Origin: an uncultured Opitutaceae bacterium | Lineage (GTDB): Bacteria; Verrucomicrobiota; Verrucomicrobiia; Opitutales; Opitutaceae | Direction of reading: 5' to 3' | NCBI GenBank assembly: GCA_903919205.1 | Contig: CAIXHE010000068.1 | Span: 1 to 40,850 of the forward strand | Length of the DNA: 40,850 nucleotides | Program-made: the position numbers and the translations under genes | Notes under the pieces: generated by a model | Seen by the model: only the letters and a program-made list of their open reading frames with translations | Database searches by the model: none | What the model was told of the DNA's origin: nothing | Shown: one piece after another, positions 26,785 to 32,670 of the stretch | Layout: each line of letters opens with the position of its first letter | Position numbering within the stretch: position 1 is the first letter of the stretch

Positions 26785-29700
26785 CTACTGGCACGCCTCG
26801 CAGGTCCCCCCGTTGCGCATGGCCTCGATGCTGCACGCCGTCTTCTCCTCGGCGGTGTAGGTCTTGGCAGGCGCCCCAGCCTCGGGGAAGGGCGTCTGGG
26901 TCAGGAGCGCACCGGCATCCCTCGACGCCGTCTCTCCCTTCGTCTCTCCGGCGGCGCCGCGCATCTCCTTCTTCACGTGGACGGTGGACTTCTCGATGTT
27001 GGAGGCGCCCAGGCCTCGCAGATAGTAGGTCGTCTTCAGCCCGGCGTGCCAGGCGTGGCGGTACATGTGCGAGAGCGTCTTCAGGTCGGGGGTCTTGATC
27101 CAGAGGTTCACGGACTGCGACTGGTCGATCCACTTCTGGCGGCGCGCCGCAGCGTCCACGACCCACTTGTGGTCGATGTCGAACGCGGTCAGGTACTTCT
27201 TCTTCAGGTCGGCCGGAACCCGCTCGATGTCGGCCAACTCGCCGTCGAAGTACTTGAGGCTGTCCATCATGTCCTGGTCCCAGAGGCCACGGGCCTTCAG
27301 GTCCTTCACGAGGAAGGGATTGAGGACGATGAACTCCCCCGACAGGTTCGATTTGACGAACAAGTTCTTGTAGGTGGGCTCGATGCAGGGCGACGTGTTC
27401 GTGATGTTCGAGATGGTTGCCGTGGGCGCGATCGCGAGCACGTTGCTGTTGCGCATGCCGTGGGCTGCGATCTTGGCCCGCACCGGCGTCCAGTCCATTC
27501 GGCCCCCATGGGGCACTTGGATCGGGAGTCCGCGCTCCTTCTCCAGCAGTTCCACGGTATCCTGCGGCAGGAGGCCGCGGTCCCACTTCGAGCCCTTGTA
27601 GGACGAGTACGTCCCGCGCTCCGCGGCAAGCTCCGAGCTCGCCTCGTAGGCGTAGTAGGCGATCGCCTCCATGGCCTCGTCGTTGAACTCCACCGCCTCC
27701 GGCGAGGCGAATGCCACGCCCTTCATGTAGAGGGTGTTTGCGAGGCCCATCATGCCGAGCCCGATGGGCCTGTGGCGCATGTTCGAGCGCTGCGCCGCCT
27801 CGGTCGGGTAGAAGTTGATGTCGATCACGTTGTCGAGCGCCCGCACCGCCATGCGGATCGTTTGGCGCAGCTTCTCGTGGTCGAGCGAGCCGTCGGCGCT
27901 CAGGTGGGTCTCCAGGATGACGGAGCCCAGGTTGCAGACCGCGGTCTCGTCCTTCGAGGTGTTGAGCGTGATCTCGGTGTTCTTCGTCACGAGCCCGTTC
28001 ACGGTCCAGCTGTGCTCGTCCGTGAACACCTGCAGGCAGAACGCATCCTCGTTGGGAAGCTGCTCCAGGGCCTCGAACACCGCGTGCATCTTCTGCTGGT
28101 GGCCGGCCTTCTCGAGGTTCGAGAGGAACCGGGCGTTGCCACGGAGCCGTCCGACGCCCGTCAGGTTCTCGAGGATGCGGCATCCGCGGATCGAGGAGAC
28201 GTGGAGCCTCCAGAGCTCGTTCTGGTAGTACTCGCGGGTGCCACCGTGCCCGTCGGGCAGCTCGGCCAGCCCGCCCTCGCGCATCCGTGTCAGCGAGGAC
28301 TTGATCCCGAAGTTGGCGAGCAGCACCTGGATCTCCGAGAGGAACTCCCGGCTGACGGAGGCAAGCGCGCACGTCGTTACGTCTCCCGCGGACTCCACCG
28401 TCGCATCCGCCGCGTAGAGGCCGCGCAGGTAGGCGGCCGCGGTGTCCCTCGAACCCCTCCACACGAACTCGGGGACCCTGAGCTTCGTCTCGGCGGTGAA
28501 GCCGGACTGCGCAAGGACGCGCGCAAGCGGGGCCGAGCAGAGGCGTTTCTTGTATTCGTCCCCCACAAACTTCGCGGTCAGCGAGGACGTGGTCGCCCCG
28601 GTCTCGCCGGCCTTTTCCAGGATGGCCGCCACGGCAGCCTCCACTTCACCGACGAGCGAATACTCGTTGGCCCACAGGTCGATGCAGGTCGAGACCGACC
28701 CGTTCTTGTGATGCATGTGGGTTCCGTCGCCGGCAACCAGCCCGCAGACCAGGGCGAGTTCCACGGAATCATCGGTGCCCCAGAGGCCCTCGGCCTGCTG
28801 GATCTCGATCAGGTCTCCGCGCTTGAGCTCCTGCGCCTCGACCCAGCCGCGGCCGACAACCCAGACCTTGTGATCGGGGGTCACCTTGTGGGTGTAGCCC
28901 TCCTTGGTCCAGATCCTGACAATGGGGGCATCCGGGCGCGGAAGCAGCATCGGGCCGGCCGGCACCGGACCCGAGCGACCGTAGACCAGGTTCACGGGTT
29001 CGGAGGTCAGCGGCGTGTTGCCGTGGCCGCCCACCAGGGCCAGCGTGCGCGCCTTCTCGAAGAGGTATCCGACGGTCACCAGGCCCTCGGACGTCACGAC
29101 GCGCTGGTCGGCCGTCATGCAGCAGAGGTTGGACGAGTGCACGACGCCCACGTGGTCCTGCGGCGAGCGCACGTTGCACGGGTCCTTGAACGTGATCCAG
29201 GGATGTCCGGTCTCGAAGATCATCGAGAGCATCTTCTTCCAGAGGTCGAGGGCCTCGATCTTGTGGCCGTGGACCTTGCCCTCCTCTGAGAGCTTCTCGT
29301 AGTGGAGGTACAGCTCCTCGAACCGGCGGCCGTAGGCGTCGTGCAGGTCAGGCACCTCGTTGGCGCGGAAGAGCGTCCACGAACCGCGCGCCTCCATGCG
29401 TTTCATGAAGAGGTCGGGGATCCAGTTCGCCGTGTTCATGTCGTGGGTGCGACGGCGGTCGTCGCCCGTGTTTTTCCTCAGCTCGAGGAACTCGTAGATA
29501 TCGTTGTGCCAGCTCTCGAGGTAGGCGCAGCCCGACCCCTTGCGCTTCCCGCCCTGGTTCACCGCCACGAGCTGGTCGTTGTGAAGCTTGAGGAACGGGA
29601 TCACGCCCTGCGACTCGCCGTTCGTTCCACCGATGTAGGCGCCCGTCCCGCGGACCGCAGTCCACGAGCCGCCCAGGCCGCCCGCCCACTTCGACAGGTA

Positions 29701-31251
29701 GGCGTTCTCGGCGATGCCGCGCTGGAAGATGCCCTCGATCGAGTCGTCGACGTAGTAGAGGTAGCAGCTCGAGAGCTGGGAATGCAGCGTGCCGCTGTTG
29801 AAGAGCGTGGGCGTCGACGAGCAGAACCTGCGGGTCTTGTAGAGCTCGTAGAGTCCGATCGACTTGTTCTCCCGGAGGTCTTTCTCGTCTAGAAAAAGCC
29901 CCATTGCGACGCGCATCCAGAAGAACTGGGGCGTCTCGATCCGGCGGGAGGGCTTCGAAACCTTGTCGACGATCAGGTATCGGTCGTAGAGCGTCTGGAC
30001 GCCCAGGAAATCGAACTCGAGGTCGGAGGACGGGTCCAGGGCTGCGCCCAGCTTAGCCAGGTCGTACTCCAGCAGGCGGGGGTTCAGCCGCTTGATAGCG
30101 ATCCCGTGCTCGATGTACTTCTTGAACGCCTTCTGGTGGCTCTCCTTCAGCTTGGCCACGCCGTCCCTCATGATGTCCCACCCGAGGACCTCCTCGTAGA
30201 TGTAGGTCAGCTGGATGCGGCCCGCGAACTTCGCGAAGTCCGCGTCCTTCTCGATCAGGGTCTTCGAGTTGAGGATGATCGTCGCGTCCAGGTCCTTCTG
30301 GGAGATCTGGTCGTACACCGCGCGGCGCAGCTCGAACTCGATCTCCTCGTCGGAGAGGCACAGGTCGAGGCCGGCCCGGGCGAACGCGATCCTGCGGCGC
30401 AGGTCGGTGCCGTCCCAGAGCACGGTGTCGCCGCTCGCCTTCTTGACGACGACCAGGGTCTCCTGCCCGGGGGTCGAGGGCGCCTTGGCGGCCTCGACCG
30501 TCTGCGCGCCGCTCGCCCGGGCGACCGCGCGCTCGGCCCGGTAGAGGATGTAGGCCTCGGCCACCTTGAAGTGACCGGCCTTCATGAGCTCCTCCTGGAC
30601 GATGTCCTGGACCTCCTCGATGCGCACGAAGGCCTGGCTCGAGGCCTTGACGCGCTCGGACACGGCCTTCGCGATCGCGACAGCCGGCGCGGAGTCGCGG
30701 GCCAGCGATAGAAACGTCTTTCTGACGGCGATCTCGACCTTGTGGTCGCTCCACGGGACCACCTGGAGGTTGCGCCGGATCACCCGGATCGTGCTCTGGG
30801 CCGCGCTCTCACGGCTGACCGAGATCTTCCGCGAGCGATTGATCAGGAGGCACTTCGCCACCATGTAGGCGTTGTTGTCGACCAGGGTCTTCTCGATCAG
30901 CTCATACAGCGCGTCCAGGCTCAGGCGCACGGGGTTCTGGCGGCGGGAGAGCTCGGTCAGGTTGACCGCGAGCTCGCGGCAGATCTGGGCCACCCAGGCA
31001 CGATTCTTGTCGGTGAAGATCTCTTTCTCGTTCTGGGAGATGCAGACGTTGGTGAGGGCCTTGCCGAGGGTGTCGGCGACCTCGGTCATGTCGAAGCGCT
31101 CCTCGCCGTGCGGGCACAGCAGGATGATCGGCGGGAGGGGAATCTCGTTTACAGGCAGGACGTCGCGCCAGGCGAAAACGGGCTTCTGTTCGATCGGAGC
31201 GTGGACCGTCGCCTTCAGGGCAAGATCATCGGCAAGGGGGATATTATTCAT
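26785..31251 (-). CDS. nrdA: Ribonucleoside-diphosphate reductase alpha subunit, class I, with intein
   Basis: A 1488-residue precursor; 1107 residues after removal of the intein (711-1091). It converts ribonucleoside diphosphates to deoxy forms with NrdB. The N terminus holds ATP-cone modules (about 153-245 and 265-349, with a degenerate one near 40-140), as in the large chlamydial NrdA. The catalytic loop reads SSN-L-C710 | T1092-E-I-T, matching N437, C439 and E441 of E. coli; ETAVCNLGS carries the C462 equivalent. The tail ends GGTCEACQ with the redox cysteine pair. The leader is AT-rich with no Shine-Dalgarno before ATG 31251. It lies 151 bases downstream of nrdB. Confidence 0.95.
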   Translation of the reverse strand: MNNIPLADDLALKATVHAPIEQKPVFAWRDVLPVNEIPLPPIILLCPHGEERFDMTEVADTLGKALTNVCISQNEKEIFTDKNRAWVAQICRELAVNLTELSRRQNPVRLSLDALYELIEKTLVDNNAYMVAKCLLINRSRKISVSRESAAQSTIRVIRRNLQVVPWSDHKVEIAVRKTFLSLARDSAPAVAIAKAVSERVKASSQAFVRIEEVQDIVQEELMKAGHFKVAEAYILYRAERAVARASGAQTVEAAKAPSTPGQETLVVVKKASGDTVLWDGTDLRRRIAFARAGLDLCLSDEEIEFELRRAVYDQISQKDLDATIILNSKTLIEKDADFAKFAGRIQLTYIYEEVLGWDIMRDGVAKLKESHQKAFKKYIEHGIAIKRLNPRLLEYDLAKLGAALDPSSDLEFDFLGVQTLYDRYLIVDKVSKPSRRIETPQFFWMRVAMGLFLDEKDLRENKSIGLYELYKTRRFCSSTPTLFNSGTLHSQLSSCYLYYVDDSIEGIFQRGIAENAYLSKWAGGLGGSWTAVRGTGAYIGGTNGESQGVIPFLKLHNDQLVAVNQGGKRKGSGCAYLESWHNDIYEFLELRKNTGDDRRRTHDMNTANWIPDLFMKRMEARGSWTLFRANEVPDLHDAYGRRFEELYLHYEKLSEEGKVHGHKIEALDLWKKMLSMIFETGHPWITFKDPCNVRSPQDHVGVVHSSNLCCMTADQRVVTSEGLVTVGYLFEKARTLALVGGHGNTPLTSEPVNLVYGRSGPVPAGPMLLPRPDAPIVRIWTKEGYTHKVTPDHKVWVVGRGWVEAQELKRGDLIEIQQAEGLWGTDDSVELALVCGLVAGDGTHMHHKNGSVSTCIDLWANEYSLVGEVEAAVAAILEKAGETGATTSSLTAKFVGDEYKKRLCSAPLARVLAQSGFTAETKLRVPEFVWRGSRDTAAAYLRGLYAADATVESAGDVTTCALASVSREFLSEIQVLLANFGIKSSLTRMREGGLAELPDGHGGTREYYQNELWRLHVSSIRGCRILENLTGVGRLRGNARFLSNLEKAGHQQKMHAVFEALEQLPNEDAFCLQVFTDEHSWTVNGLVTKNTEITLNTSKDETAVCNLGSVILETHLSADGSLDHEKLRQTIRMAVRALDNVIDINFYPTEAAQRSNMRHRPIGLGMMGLANTLYMKGVAFASPEAVEFNDEAMEAIAYYAYEASSELAAERGTYSSYKGSKWDRGLLPQDTVELLEKERGLPIQVPHGGRMDWTPVRAKIAAHGMRNSNVLAIAPTATISNITNTSPCIEPTYKNLFVKSNLSGEFIVLNPFLVKDLKARGLWDQDMMDSLKYFDGELADIERVPADLKKKYLTAFDIDHKWVVDAAARRQKWIDQSQSVNLWIKTPDLKTLSHMYRHAWHAGLKTTYYLRGLGASNIEKSTVHVKKEMRGAAGETKGETASRDAGALLTQTPFPEAGAPAKTYTAEEKTACSIEAMRNGGTCEACQ
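27979..29121 (-). mobile_element. Intein with LAGLIDADG homing endonuclease, inserted in nrdA
   Basis: 381 residues (711-1091 of the precursor), in frame. The N-terminal block is CMTADQRVVTSEG with splice nucleophile Cys1. Block B is VTPDHKV with T81/H84. The two endonuclease motifs are CGLVAGDG (126-133, acid D132) and YLRGLYAADA (231-240, acid D239), so the endonuclease may be active. The C-terminal blocks are LQVFTDEHSWTVNGLVTKN with H370 and terminal N381; the next extein residue is Thr. The usual penultimate His is Lys (K380). Removal restores NLCTEITLNT exactly, which fixes both boundaries. Confidence 0.93.
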
Positions 31252-31402: not shown

Positions 31403-32488
31403 TCAGAGCTCGTCGTCCGAGGCAACCGTCAATGAGGAGGACTTCTGGTATTCGGTGACCCGGCCCTCGAAGAAGTTCTGCTCCTTCGCGATGTCCATCA
31501 TCTCGGCCAGCCAAGGCAGCGGGTTCTTGATGCCGCTCGACAGCGGCGCCAAGCCGCAGCCTTCGAGGCGGCGGTCGGCGATGTAATCGATGTAGGTCTG
31601 AAAGTCCTCCAGGCGGAGGCCCACCGCGTTGACGGGCAGGCAGTCGCGAATGAACTCCTTCTCGAGCGTGACGGCCTCGCGCATCAGCCCGCGGAGCTCC
31701 TCCTTGTACTCGGGGGTCCAGATCTCGCGGTTCTCCTCGATCAGGTCCATGAACAGGTTGCGGAAGACCTCGATGTGGTTGGACTCGTCGCGCAGGGTGT
31801 AGCGGAACATCTGGCCGATCCCGGGGAACTTGTTCTGGCGGTACAGCGAGAGGATCATCCCGAAGAGGCCGTAGAACTGGGTTCCCTCCATGCACTGACC
31901 GAACACGAAAATGTTGGACGCGAGCAGACGCTTGTTCTCGAGCTGGGTGAGGTCCAGGTCCCGGCGAAGGTCGCGGGAGATCTTGGTCACGAACTCGTTC
32001 TTGCGGACGATGGTCGGGACGTCCTCGAACATCGCCTCGCACTCGTGCGGGTTGATCCCGAGGGAGGCGATCATGTAGAGCAACGAATCCGCATGGATGT
32101 TCTCCTCGTGGGCGTGGCGACCGAGCACCAGCTTCAGCTCTGGGGCCGTCACCAGCTCGCGCACCACGTGCTGGATGTTGTCACCCACGATGCCCTCGGC
32201 GGCCGAGAAGTAGCCGATGCCCATCCGGATGATCCAGCGCTCAACGTCGGACACCGACTTGGTGTCGCGCCACTGCTCGATGTCCTTGCCCATCGGGACG
32301 TCCTCGGGCTCCCAATGGTTCGCCTTCATTGTCCGATAGAGGTCGTAGGCCCACTGGTACTTCAGCGGCAGCAGGTTGAAGGTCATGCTGGGCCGGCCGT
32401 TGATGACGCGCTTGGCGGCAAACGCGGCCTCCGCCTTGGCCTGATCGAGGACAAACGTCTTGGTGCCTACCTGGAAGGTCTTTTGCAT
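31403..32488 (-). CDS. nrdB: Ribonucleoside-diphosphate reductase beta subunit, class Ic-like with Leu at radical site
   Basis: A 361-residue R2 protein that houses the dimetal cofactor for NrdA. All six metal ligands are visible: E98 (SAAEGIVGDNI), E129 and H132 (EENIH), E201 (MEGTQFYG), and E235 and H238 (DESNH). The first ligand is Glu, as in chlamydial R2, not Asp. The radical-Tyr position (E129 + 7) is L136, so no tyrosyl radical can form there. This fits the class Ic group, where a Mn/Fe centre stores the oxidising equivalent; chlamydial R2 has Phe. Y346 near the C terminus probably relays the radical to NrdA. ATG 32488 precedes the conserved part and follows CGGATCC. Confidence 0.95.
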   Translation of the reverse strand: MQKTFQVGTKTFVLDQAKAEAAFAAKRVINGRPSMTFNLLPLKYQWAYDLYRTMKANHWEPEDVPMGKDIEQWRDTKSVSDVERWIIRMGIGYFSAAEGIVGDNIQHVVRELVTAPELKLVLGRHAHEENIHADSLLYMIASLGINPHECEAMFEDVPTIVRKNEFVTKISRDLRRDLDLTQLENKRLLASNIFVFGQCMEGTQFYGLFGMILSLYRQNKFPGIGQMFRYTLRDESNHIEVFRNLFMDLIEENREIWTPEYKEELRGLMREAVTLEKEFIRDCLPVNAVGLRLEDFQTYIDYIADRRLEGCGLAPLSSGIKNPLPWLAEMMDIAKEQNFFEGRVTEYQKSSSLTVASDDEL

Positions 32489-32590
32489 GGATCCGAAAAA
32501 TTTAGAGCAGGGAATGGGGGCGACGGGACCTTTTCGAACGCGAAACAAGCCCATGCGAACTAAAGTTGCTGGAACTTATTTACGCGTTGT

Positions 32591-32612
32591 TGACCACAAC
32601 AGGATGTGGTCA
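32591..32612 (-). promoter_or_regulatory. Perfect 8-bp inverted repeat in the nrdB leader
   Basis: TGACCACA and TGTGGTCA flank six bases. It lies just downstream of the proposed nrdB promoter, probably in the early transcribed region, 103 bases before the ATG. It shares the half-site CCACAAC/GACCACA with the neighbouring repeat at 32627-32670. A repressor operator or RNA hairpin are both possible. Confidence 0.55.
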
Positions 32613-32626
32613 GGGCCCCGCAGTGC

Positions 32627-32670
32627 CACAACCTATTGAGATATGATTTTCGGGCGTCAATAGGTTTGTG
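32627..32670 (-). promoter_or_regulatory. Proposed nrdB promoter framed by a 13-bp inverted repeat
   Basis: On the minus strand CACAAACCTATTGA (32670-32657) and TCAATAGGTTGTG (32639-32627) are complementary apart from one extra base, with 17 bases between. TTGACG within the first arm and AATAGG within the second are 17 bases apart, so a sigma70-like -35/-10 coincides with the arms. Protein binding to the arms would block transcription of nrdB-nrdA. It does not match the NrdR box consensus I know. Confidence 0.5.

Follow-up and report, generated by a model that had tools for sequence, protein, structure and literature searches.

The window, i.e. the whole stretch of 40,850 nucleotides analysed here, originates from an uncultured Opitutaceae bacterium and carries nrdB, the gene for the R2 subunit of a ribonucleotide reductase (RNR), followed downstream by nrdA, the gene for the R1 subunit, which is interrupted by an intein; a pair of short boxes lies upstream of nrdB (Table 1). 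The preliminary description of this DNA had located NrdB at the same place, which is borne out, and the strand, on which it was silent, is the minus one. Besides the ATG at 32488, the open reading frame offers a longer in-frame start at 32554 (-).

Table 1. Features of the nrdB-nrdA locus and codons of the NrdB residues discussed in the text (Ct, Chlamydia trachomatis)
Feature	Positions	Strand	Basis or remark
nrdB, R2 subunit, 361 aa	31403..32488	(-)	ATG at 32488; profile matches and best PDB match, C. trachomatis R2
nrdA, R1 subunit, 1488 aa with ATP-cone	26785..31251	(-)	Downstream of nrdB; open reading frame and profile
Intein, 381 aa, LAGLIDADG domain, inside nrdA	27979..29121	(-)	Profile match
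Box 1, palindromic, putatively NrdR-box-like, 16 bp from box 2	32626..32641	(-)	Upstream of nrdB
Box 2, palindromic CCACA-N6-TGTGG, putatively NrdR-box-like	32594..32609	(-)	Upstream of nrdB
W59 codon (Ct W51), radical-transfer tryptophan	32312..32314	(-)	Alignment; role from PMC4118035
E98 codon, first metal ligand, Glu rather than Asp	32195..32197	(-)	Alignment
E129-N-I-H132 codons, ligand pair	32093..32104	(-)	Alignment, 111 related loci
L136 codon, radical-tyrosine position	32081..32083	(-)	Gap-free alignment to Ct R2 residue 127
E201 codon, ligand	31886..31888	(-)	Alignment, 111 related loci
T231 codon, four before E235	31796..31798	(-)	Thr in 199/201 Leu rows, Ile in 29/30 Phe rows
E235-S-N-H238 codons, ligand pair	31775..31786	(-)	Alignment, 111 related loci
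Y347 codon, C-terminal tail, probable inter-subunit radical transfer	31448..31450	(-)	Alignment

The assignment of NrdB to the R2 family is supported by two NCBIfam profiles, NF005550 (324.7 bits, cut-off 309) and NF007186 (241 bits, cut-off 237), and by PF00268 (223 bits). The best solved-structure match is the R2 of C. trachomatis (phmmer, E 7.9e-79, residues 13-354). The same protein came first when a profile of 21 Leu proteins was run against the PDB (E 5.5e-88, among the matches listed, 60 of 74), where molecule names do not give the R2 class, class Id being compared here by its published description only. Profiles of R2lox reached at most 42 bits and the tail tyrosine Y347 is present, so that NrdB does not look like a member of that group.

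As regards the intein, its first residue is Cys and TEITLNTS follows it. An intein match was found in 5 of 111 related loci, and among the 109 loci with NrdA, 60 reach the intein site, 56 of which read through it uninterrupted. Upstream of nrdB, box 2 occurs in 25 of 37 upstream regions (the window plus those 36 of 80 genome_contigs loci that contain the search peptide and a sufficient length of DNA before it), and the TTGTG of box 1 stands at the same spacing in all 25 of these; a similar pair was present in 0 of 1800 random stretches, the pair having been spotted by reading the upstream regions and counted afterwards, which makes the count post hoc. NrdR is encoded in the bacterium's own genome, and the box pair may be linked to it; a search with a version of the NrdR consensus gave 0 matches within 3 mismatches.

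The central feature of this protein is the residue at the position of the radical tyrosine. In the phmmer alignment with C. trachomatis R2, L136 stands opposite Phe127 and Y138 opposite Y129, with zero gaps from E129 to L136, and the L136 column remained unchanged across alignments of 253, 317 and 54 rows, the last made with L-INS-i. The preliminary description, which had counted from the pair E129-x-x-H132 to L136 as the radical position and had listed E98, E129, H132, E201, E235 and H238 as a ligand set with Glu first, was thus right on both points: in the loci more than 50% identical, Leu136, all ligands, Y138 and Y347 show no variation (111/111), a set in which the window itself is counted twice and some genomes twice. 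An alignment with Y138 at the radical site would, it had stated, overturn its reading. Y138 as radical residue was tested by alignment and rejected, because L136 aligns with F127 of the chlamydial protein with no gap nearby; Y138 falls on Y129, a column that is tyrosine throughout the 29 Phe class Ic rows as well. A sequencing error or an odd strain as the source of Leu136 was likewise rejected, Leu being found in all 111 related loci.

Moreover, the residues expected to carry electrons are retained. In C. trachomatis R2, W51 and Y222 have this function (PMC4118035; this and the other PMC articles are cited here from extracts), D226 is a second-sphere residue (PMC6370689), and a role in radical transfer is described for the tail tyrosine (PMC9531940). 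Their counterparts here are W59 (201 of 201 Leu rows), Y230 (197 of 201), D234 and Y347, the last two being kept in the Leu rows except for the degenerate L221, which has lost Y347, and the partial L232_2.

The first ligand and the radical residue were then read together in an alignment of 317 rows. Those from Verrucomicrobiota derive from 387 genomes, 125 of them with a PF00268 match, and all 134 matches were read. In addition, 294 genomes of Planctomycetota and 398 of Pseudomonadota were searched and the best 30 loci of each used, which is not a fair sample of these phyla, since the loci nearest to the window protein were taken; seven plasmid records, three phage records, 80 loci of a DNA scan and three solved-structure chains supplied further rows. 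Asp accompanies Tyr in 82 of 82 rows, Glu accompanies Phe in 30 of 30 (one of them the R2lox-like protein L235) and Glu accompanies Leu in 200 of 201, the single Gln/Leu row being the degenerate paralogue L221; four rows are gapped. The coupling of Asp with Tyr, and of Glu with its absence, therefore holds in 312 of 313 ungapped rows. When rows identical over residues 60-339 were merged (Asp/Tyr 81, Glu/Phe 26, Glu/Leu 171, Gln/Leu 1, gapped 4), it was kept in 278 of 279 distinct ungapped rows.

The preliminary description had suggested a survey of PVC genomes for Leu. Among the 134 Verrucomicrobiota R2 matches, in which one split gene makes two rows, 89 have Leu, 28 Tyr and 14 Phe (one of these R2lox-like), and three are gapped; the Leu proteins span 17 family codes, the Phe proteins 5 and the Tyr proteins 7. 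An R2 (PF00268) match was absent in 262 of the 387 Verrucomicrobiota genomes and in 15 of 57 near relatives. Within the Planctomycetota sample, a match of at least 77% was found in 4 of 294 genomes, the next best reaching 43%. The genomes of that sample with Leu loci are G426, G544, G575 and G708, for which transfer or misbinned contigs are possible; the same applies to the Leu NrdB, about 77% identical to that of the window, of L254, L255 and L256 in three of the Planctomycetota-sample genomes, and to a Leu locus (L020, 88% identical) in a bin named Rubrivivax (G427). Apart from this bin, the Pseudomonadota sample gave full-length matches of at most 39% and a 102-residue fragment of 41%, among the matches listed. 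Phage and plasmid matches were all less than 60% identical, and the search of viral_contigs returned no relative.

With respect to the RNR inventory, the own assembly (87.7% complete) contains one PF02867 match, the adjoining NrdA, and no match to the NRDD profile. Ten relatives assembled as single contigs have one PF02867 match each (10/10) and no NRDD match (0/10), and in the nine whose R2 was read (all but G040) Glu98, Leu136 and Thr231 were found in 9 of 9. The PF02867 profile also matches the controls Thermus and Haloferax, which we take to be users of class II RNR. Because no other RNR was detected with these two profiles in the complete relatives, these bacteria seem to depend for dNTP synthesis on an R2 that lacks the customary radical tyrosine. 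A Nramp-type transporter encoded in the own genome lends weak support to a supply of Mn.

Some Leu proteins depart from this pattern. The paralogue L221 (G417:C8:97268-98704) is an open-frame tandem copy adjoining L163, a full-signature Leu NrdB; it has lost four of the six ligands (E98Q, H132R, E235V and H238R) as well as the tail Tyr, and in these respects resembles a scaffold-type beta-prime. Yeast has an R2 of this scaffold type. Furthermore, two genomes that share an Opitutaceae-family genus code (g50) carry paired adjoining NrdB genes, at L206 (G164:C11) and L213 (G253:C42); one copy in the pairs keeps the ligands, with Y230 replaced by Asn and Y138 by His. Finally, L211 (G101:C24), a deep outlier of the Leu clade, has Trp125, Ala127, Ser130 and His138 and keeps Q198, Q204 and T231, and is perhaps a link between two kinds of ligand surroundings.

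These surroundings differ between the Leu clade and the Phe proteins of class Ic. When 197 Leu rows were compared with 29 Phe rows (L221_0, L206_6, L213_13, L235_4 and L211_5 being left out), six residues beside the ligands were found to be at least 95% conserved in the Leu clade: H125, H127, N130, Q198, Q204 and T231, whereas the Phe rows have Gln, Phe/Tyr, Ala, Val/Leu/Ile, Phe/Trp and Ile, respectively. In the Tyr rows the T231 column holds Ile, Val or Ser (82/82). In class Id, Thr294, four residues before Glu298, holds the unused tyrosine (PMC6754362), and T231 has the same offset from the fifth ligand, so that this Thr is common to the Leu clade and class Id. Shared by the Leu and Phe rows against the Tyr rows are only the first ligand Glu and a few further positions (M153, M211, I224 and G225). 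Judging from helix periodicity as the sole basis, H125, Q198 and Q204 may face the metals; the AlphaFold model of NrdB made from 21 close sequences was poor (mean pLDDT 49.9).

As for the published sequence traits of class Ic, PMC6370689 (tables 3-4) gives an EEHEEH first sphere, Glu before the second ligand and Asp before the fifth. In NrdB the radical Tyr, for which class Ic has Phe, Leu or Val, is replaced by L136; the first sphere reads E, E, H, E, E, H; E128 precedes ligand 2 (in 201 of 201 Leu rows) and D234 precedes ligand 5; and the equivalents of W51, F197, Y222 and the C-terminal Tyr are W59, F205, Y230 and Y347. By these published traits NrdB is to be classed as Ic and not as Id.

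The relationship between the Leu and Phe proteins was approached by trees covering Leu, Phe and Tyr rows, class Id and Ib rows being absent. In a tree with 12 diagnostic columns removed, from which, as from its AU tests, the long branches L221, L274, L245 and L213 were left out, all Leu rows fall into a single clade (99/100), while six Tyr rows, which were taken for NrdBz, join the Phe rows, among them C. trachomatis; the best tree puts the Leu clade tentatively beside this Phe/NrdBz group (support 49/75). Forcing Leu and Phe together cost 25.6 log units (p-AU 0.0325), forcing Leu together with 16 Chlamydia-type Phe rows gave a p-AU of 0.0886 and making all Phe rows a single clade one of 0.0221, the constraints having been picked after the first tree was seen and the p-AU values being uncorrected for the number of tests. 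In the L-INS-i tree (54 rows, 15 columns removed), which also lacks L211 and six rows with a motif that we take to be E. coli-like, the Leu rows (100/100) fall with ten Tyr rows (96/85), and joining them with the Phe rows gave a p-AU of 0.0792. The Leu clade is thus monophyletic in all three trees, a quick one included, and its neighbours differ between the two careful ones. A loss of the radical Tyr in the Leu clade separate from that of the Phe group is suggested by these alignment-based tests (p-AU 0.03 and 0.08).

The residue other than the studied Phe, to which the preliminary description had pointed, is no novelty, since Leu is already in print: class Ic has been defined by "Phe, Leu, or Val" at this site (PMC6370689), Leu, Ile or Val in R2c are reported with credit to Hogbom 2010 (PMC3824934), and reference sequences with "phenylalanine or leucine" have been used (PMC12918982). 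A multiple origin of R2c has been proposed as well: according to PMC3824934, R2c came out as polyphyletic in Lundin 2010, and the tree of PMC3824934 itself, with few sequences, shows R2c as monophyletic. The extract of Lundin 2010 (PMC3019208) speaks of Phe only, and six terms denoting class Ic, Leu or Phe, looked for in the main text of the 2009 RNRdb paper, were all absent. In the literature searched, from which subscription journals were mostly out of reach, no purified or characterised Leu R2 was found, and on Verrucomicrobia with a class Ic RNR nothing beyond one paper on chlamydial evolution; nor did that literature contain the single Leu clade, its share of 89 in 134, its place outside the Phe group or its own residues near the ligands. 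The separate Leu clade with its own ligand surroundings is the part worth a test.

Taken together, NrdB is probably the subunit that generates the radical in an aerobic class I RNR and does so with no tyrosyl radical at the customary position, Mn(IV)/Fe(III) being its most likely cofactor. A reaction of the dimetal site with O2 would leave an oxidised metal in site 1, where class Ic has Mn (PMC8463856), in place of the tyrosyl radical; this metal is most likely Mn(IV) paired with Fe(III), the arrangement of C. trachomatis. The hole would be passed via W59/D234 and Y347 to NrdA, while Leu136, a residue not easily oxidised, would fill the space. The Leu clade may have reached this Tyr-free state on its own branch, or by an early split from the Phe group. 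The oxidant is likely to sit on the metals rather than on a tyrosine, because the site has no readily oxidised residue and the electron-carrying residues are kept. A Mn/Fe cofactor is plausible and is the first guess, since the published traits of class Ic are present; it does not follow from the sequence, because class Id (Mn2) has Glu as its first ligand too and the ligand surroundings differ from those of the Phe class Ic. The prediction of a radical-free Mn/Fe site in the preliminary description thus stands as regards the missing radical tyrosine, the full site and the Glu in first place, and goes too far as regards Mn/Fe, that Glu being shared with the Mn2 class Id. Moreover, the Leu clade lies outside the Phe group in both careful trees, so that Mn/Fe handed down from a shared class Ic ancestor is no more than a possibility.

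Several other readings have to be weighed against this one. The Leu proteins could form a subclass of their own, in which the loss of Tyr and the change from Asp to Glu occurred independently of the Phe class Ic and a differently tuned, possibly dimanganese oxidant lies in a polar shell of H125, Q198, Q204 and T231; we regard this as tentative and somewhat unlikely, and were it true, metal-centred initiation would have at least two origins outside class Id, the ligand change being repeated in each. An oxidant of the Leu clade that is dimanganese, Mn2(IV,III), as in class Id, instead of Mn/Fe seems unlikely: it would agree with the Glu common to both, with T231 at the Thr294 offset, a column that is Ile in all but one of the 30 Phe rows, and with the trees, which place the clade outside the Phe group, whereas the Tyr of class Id, its Cys/Ser before ligand 2 and its Trp (with Lys) are absent, E128, I/V105 and G102 being found here, and among solved structures the R2 of C. 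trachomatis matches best (E 5.5e-88, among the matches listed, 60 of 74).

A diiron enzyme with its radical on another conserved tyrosine or tryptophan is quite improbable. Y93, W85 and Y216, clade-specific redox residues that are at least 95% conserved and rare elsewhere, might serve such a purpose, but Y138, the nearest in sequence, is also Tyr in all 29 Phe class Ic rows, and, a single Gln row apart, the Glu at ligand 1 tracks the missing radical tyrosine throughout the ungapped rows. It is very improbable, in turn, that the subunit does not work in an RNR at all, as an R2lox-like oxidase, a scaffold-type beta-prime, a pseudogene or an assembly error: a degenerate R2 paralogue, L221, does occur in the phylum, but here the tail tyrosine is present, nrdA adjoins, the checked positions are preserved in each of the 111 related loci, complete relatives show no other RNR by the PF02867 and NRDD profiles and R2lox profiles give at most 42 bits.

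The experimental work found on RNRs free of a tyrosyl radical concerns C. trachomatis (Phe) and class Id; a Verrucomicrobiota clade in which the Leu version is apparently the sole RNR is a natural system in which to test how the metal and its oxidation state are determined, for it retains the Glu ligand tied to tyrosine loss, yet alters the surrounding residues. If the loss was independent, the repeated change from Asp to Glu would amount to a sequence rule predicting metal-centred initiation.

Among the systems already known, the class Ic R2 of C. trachomatis (Phe127, Mn(IV)/Fe(III); RNRdb NrdBzc) likewise has the six ligands with Glu first, but carries Phe where Leu stands here and belongs to a separate clade in three trees. 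Class Id (NrdBi, Mn2) shares the Glu first ligand (PMC6754362, PMC6370689) and the Thr four residues before ligand 5, and differs in its Tyr at the radical site and its Cys/Ser before ligand 2, where NrdB has L136 and E128, as well as in a Trp seven residues after the first ligand and, in studied members, a Lys four after it, sites that are I/V105 and G102 here, each in all Leu rows but one (200/201). Class Ia (NrdBza) is alike in family and transfer residues, although its Tyr and Asp ligand are absent here. Two further proteins were compared by their descriptions. The R2 of Cyano SP phage ("If", PMC6370689) is without the tyrosine and has EEHEEH as here, but is phage-borne and has Asp before ligand 2, where NrdB has Glu. 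The ferritin-like partner of class O (PMC9531940) has Phe or Leu at the site; it partners another clade of RNR, described as minimal.
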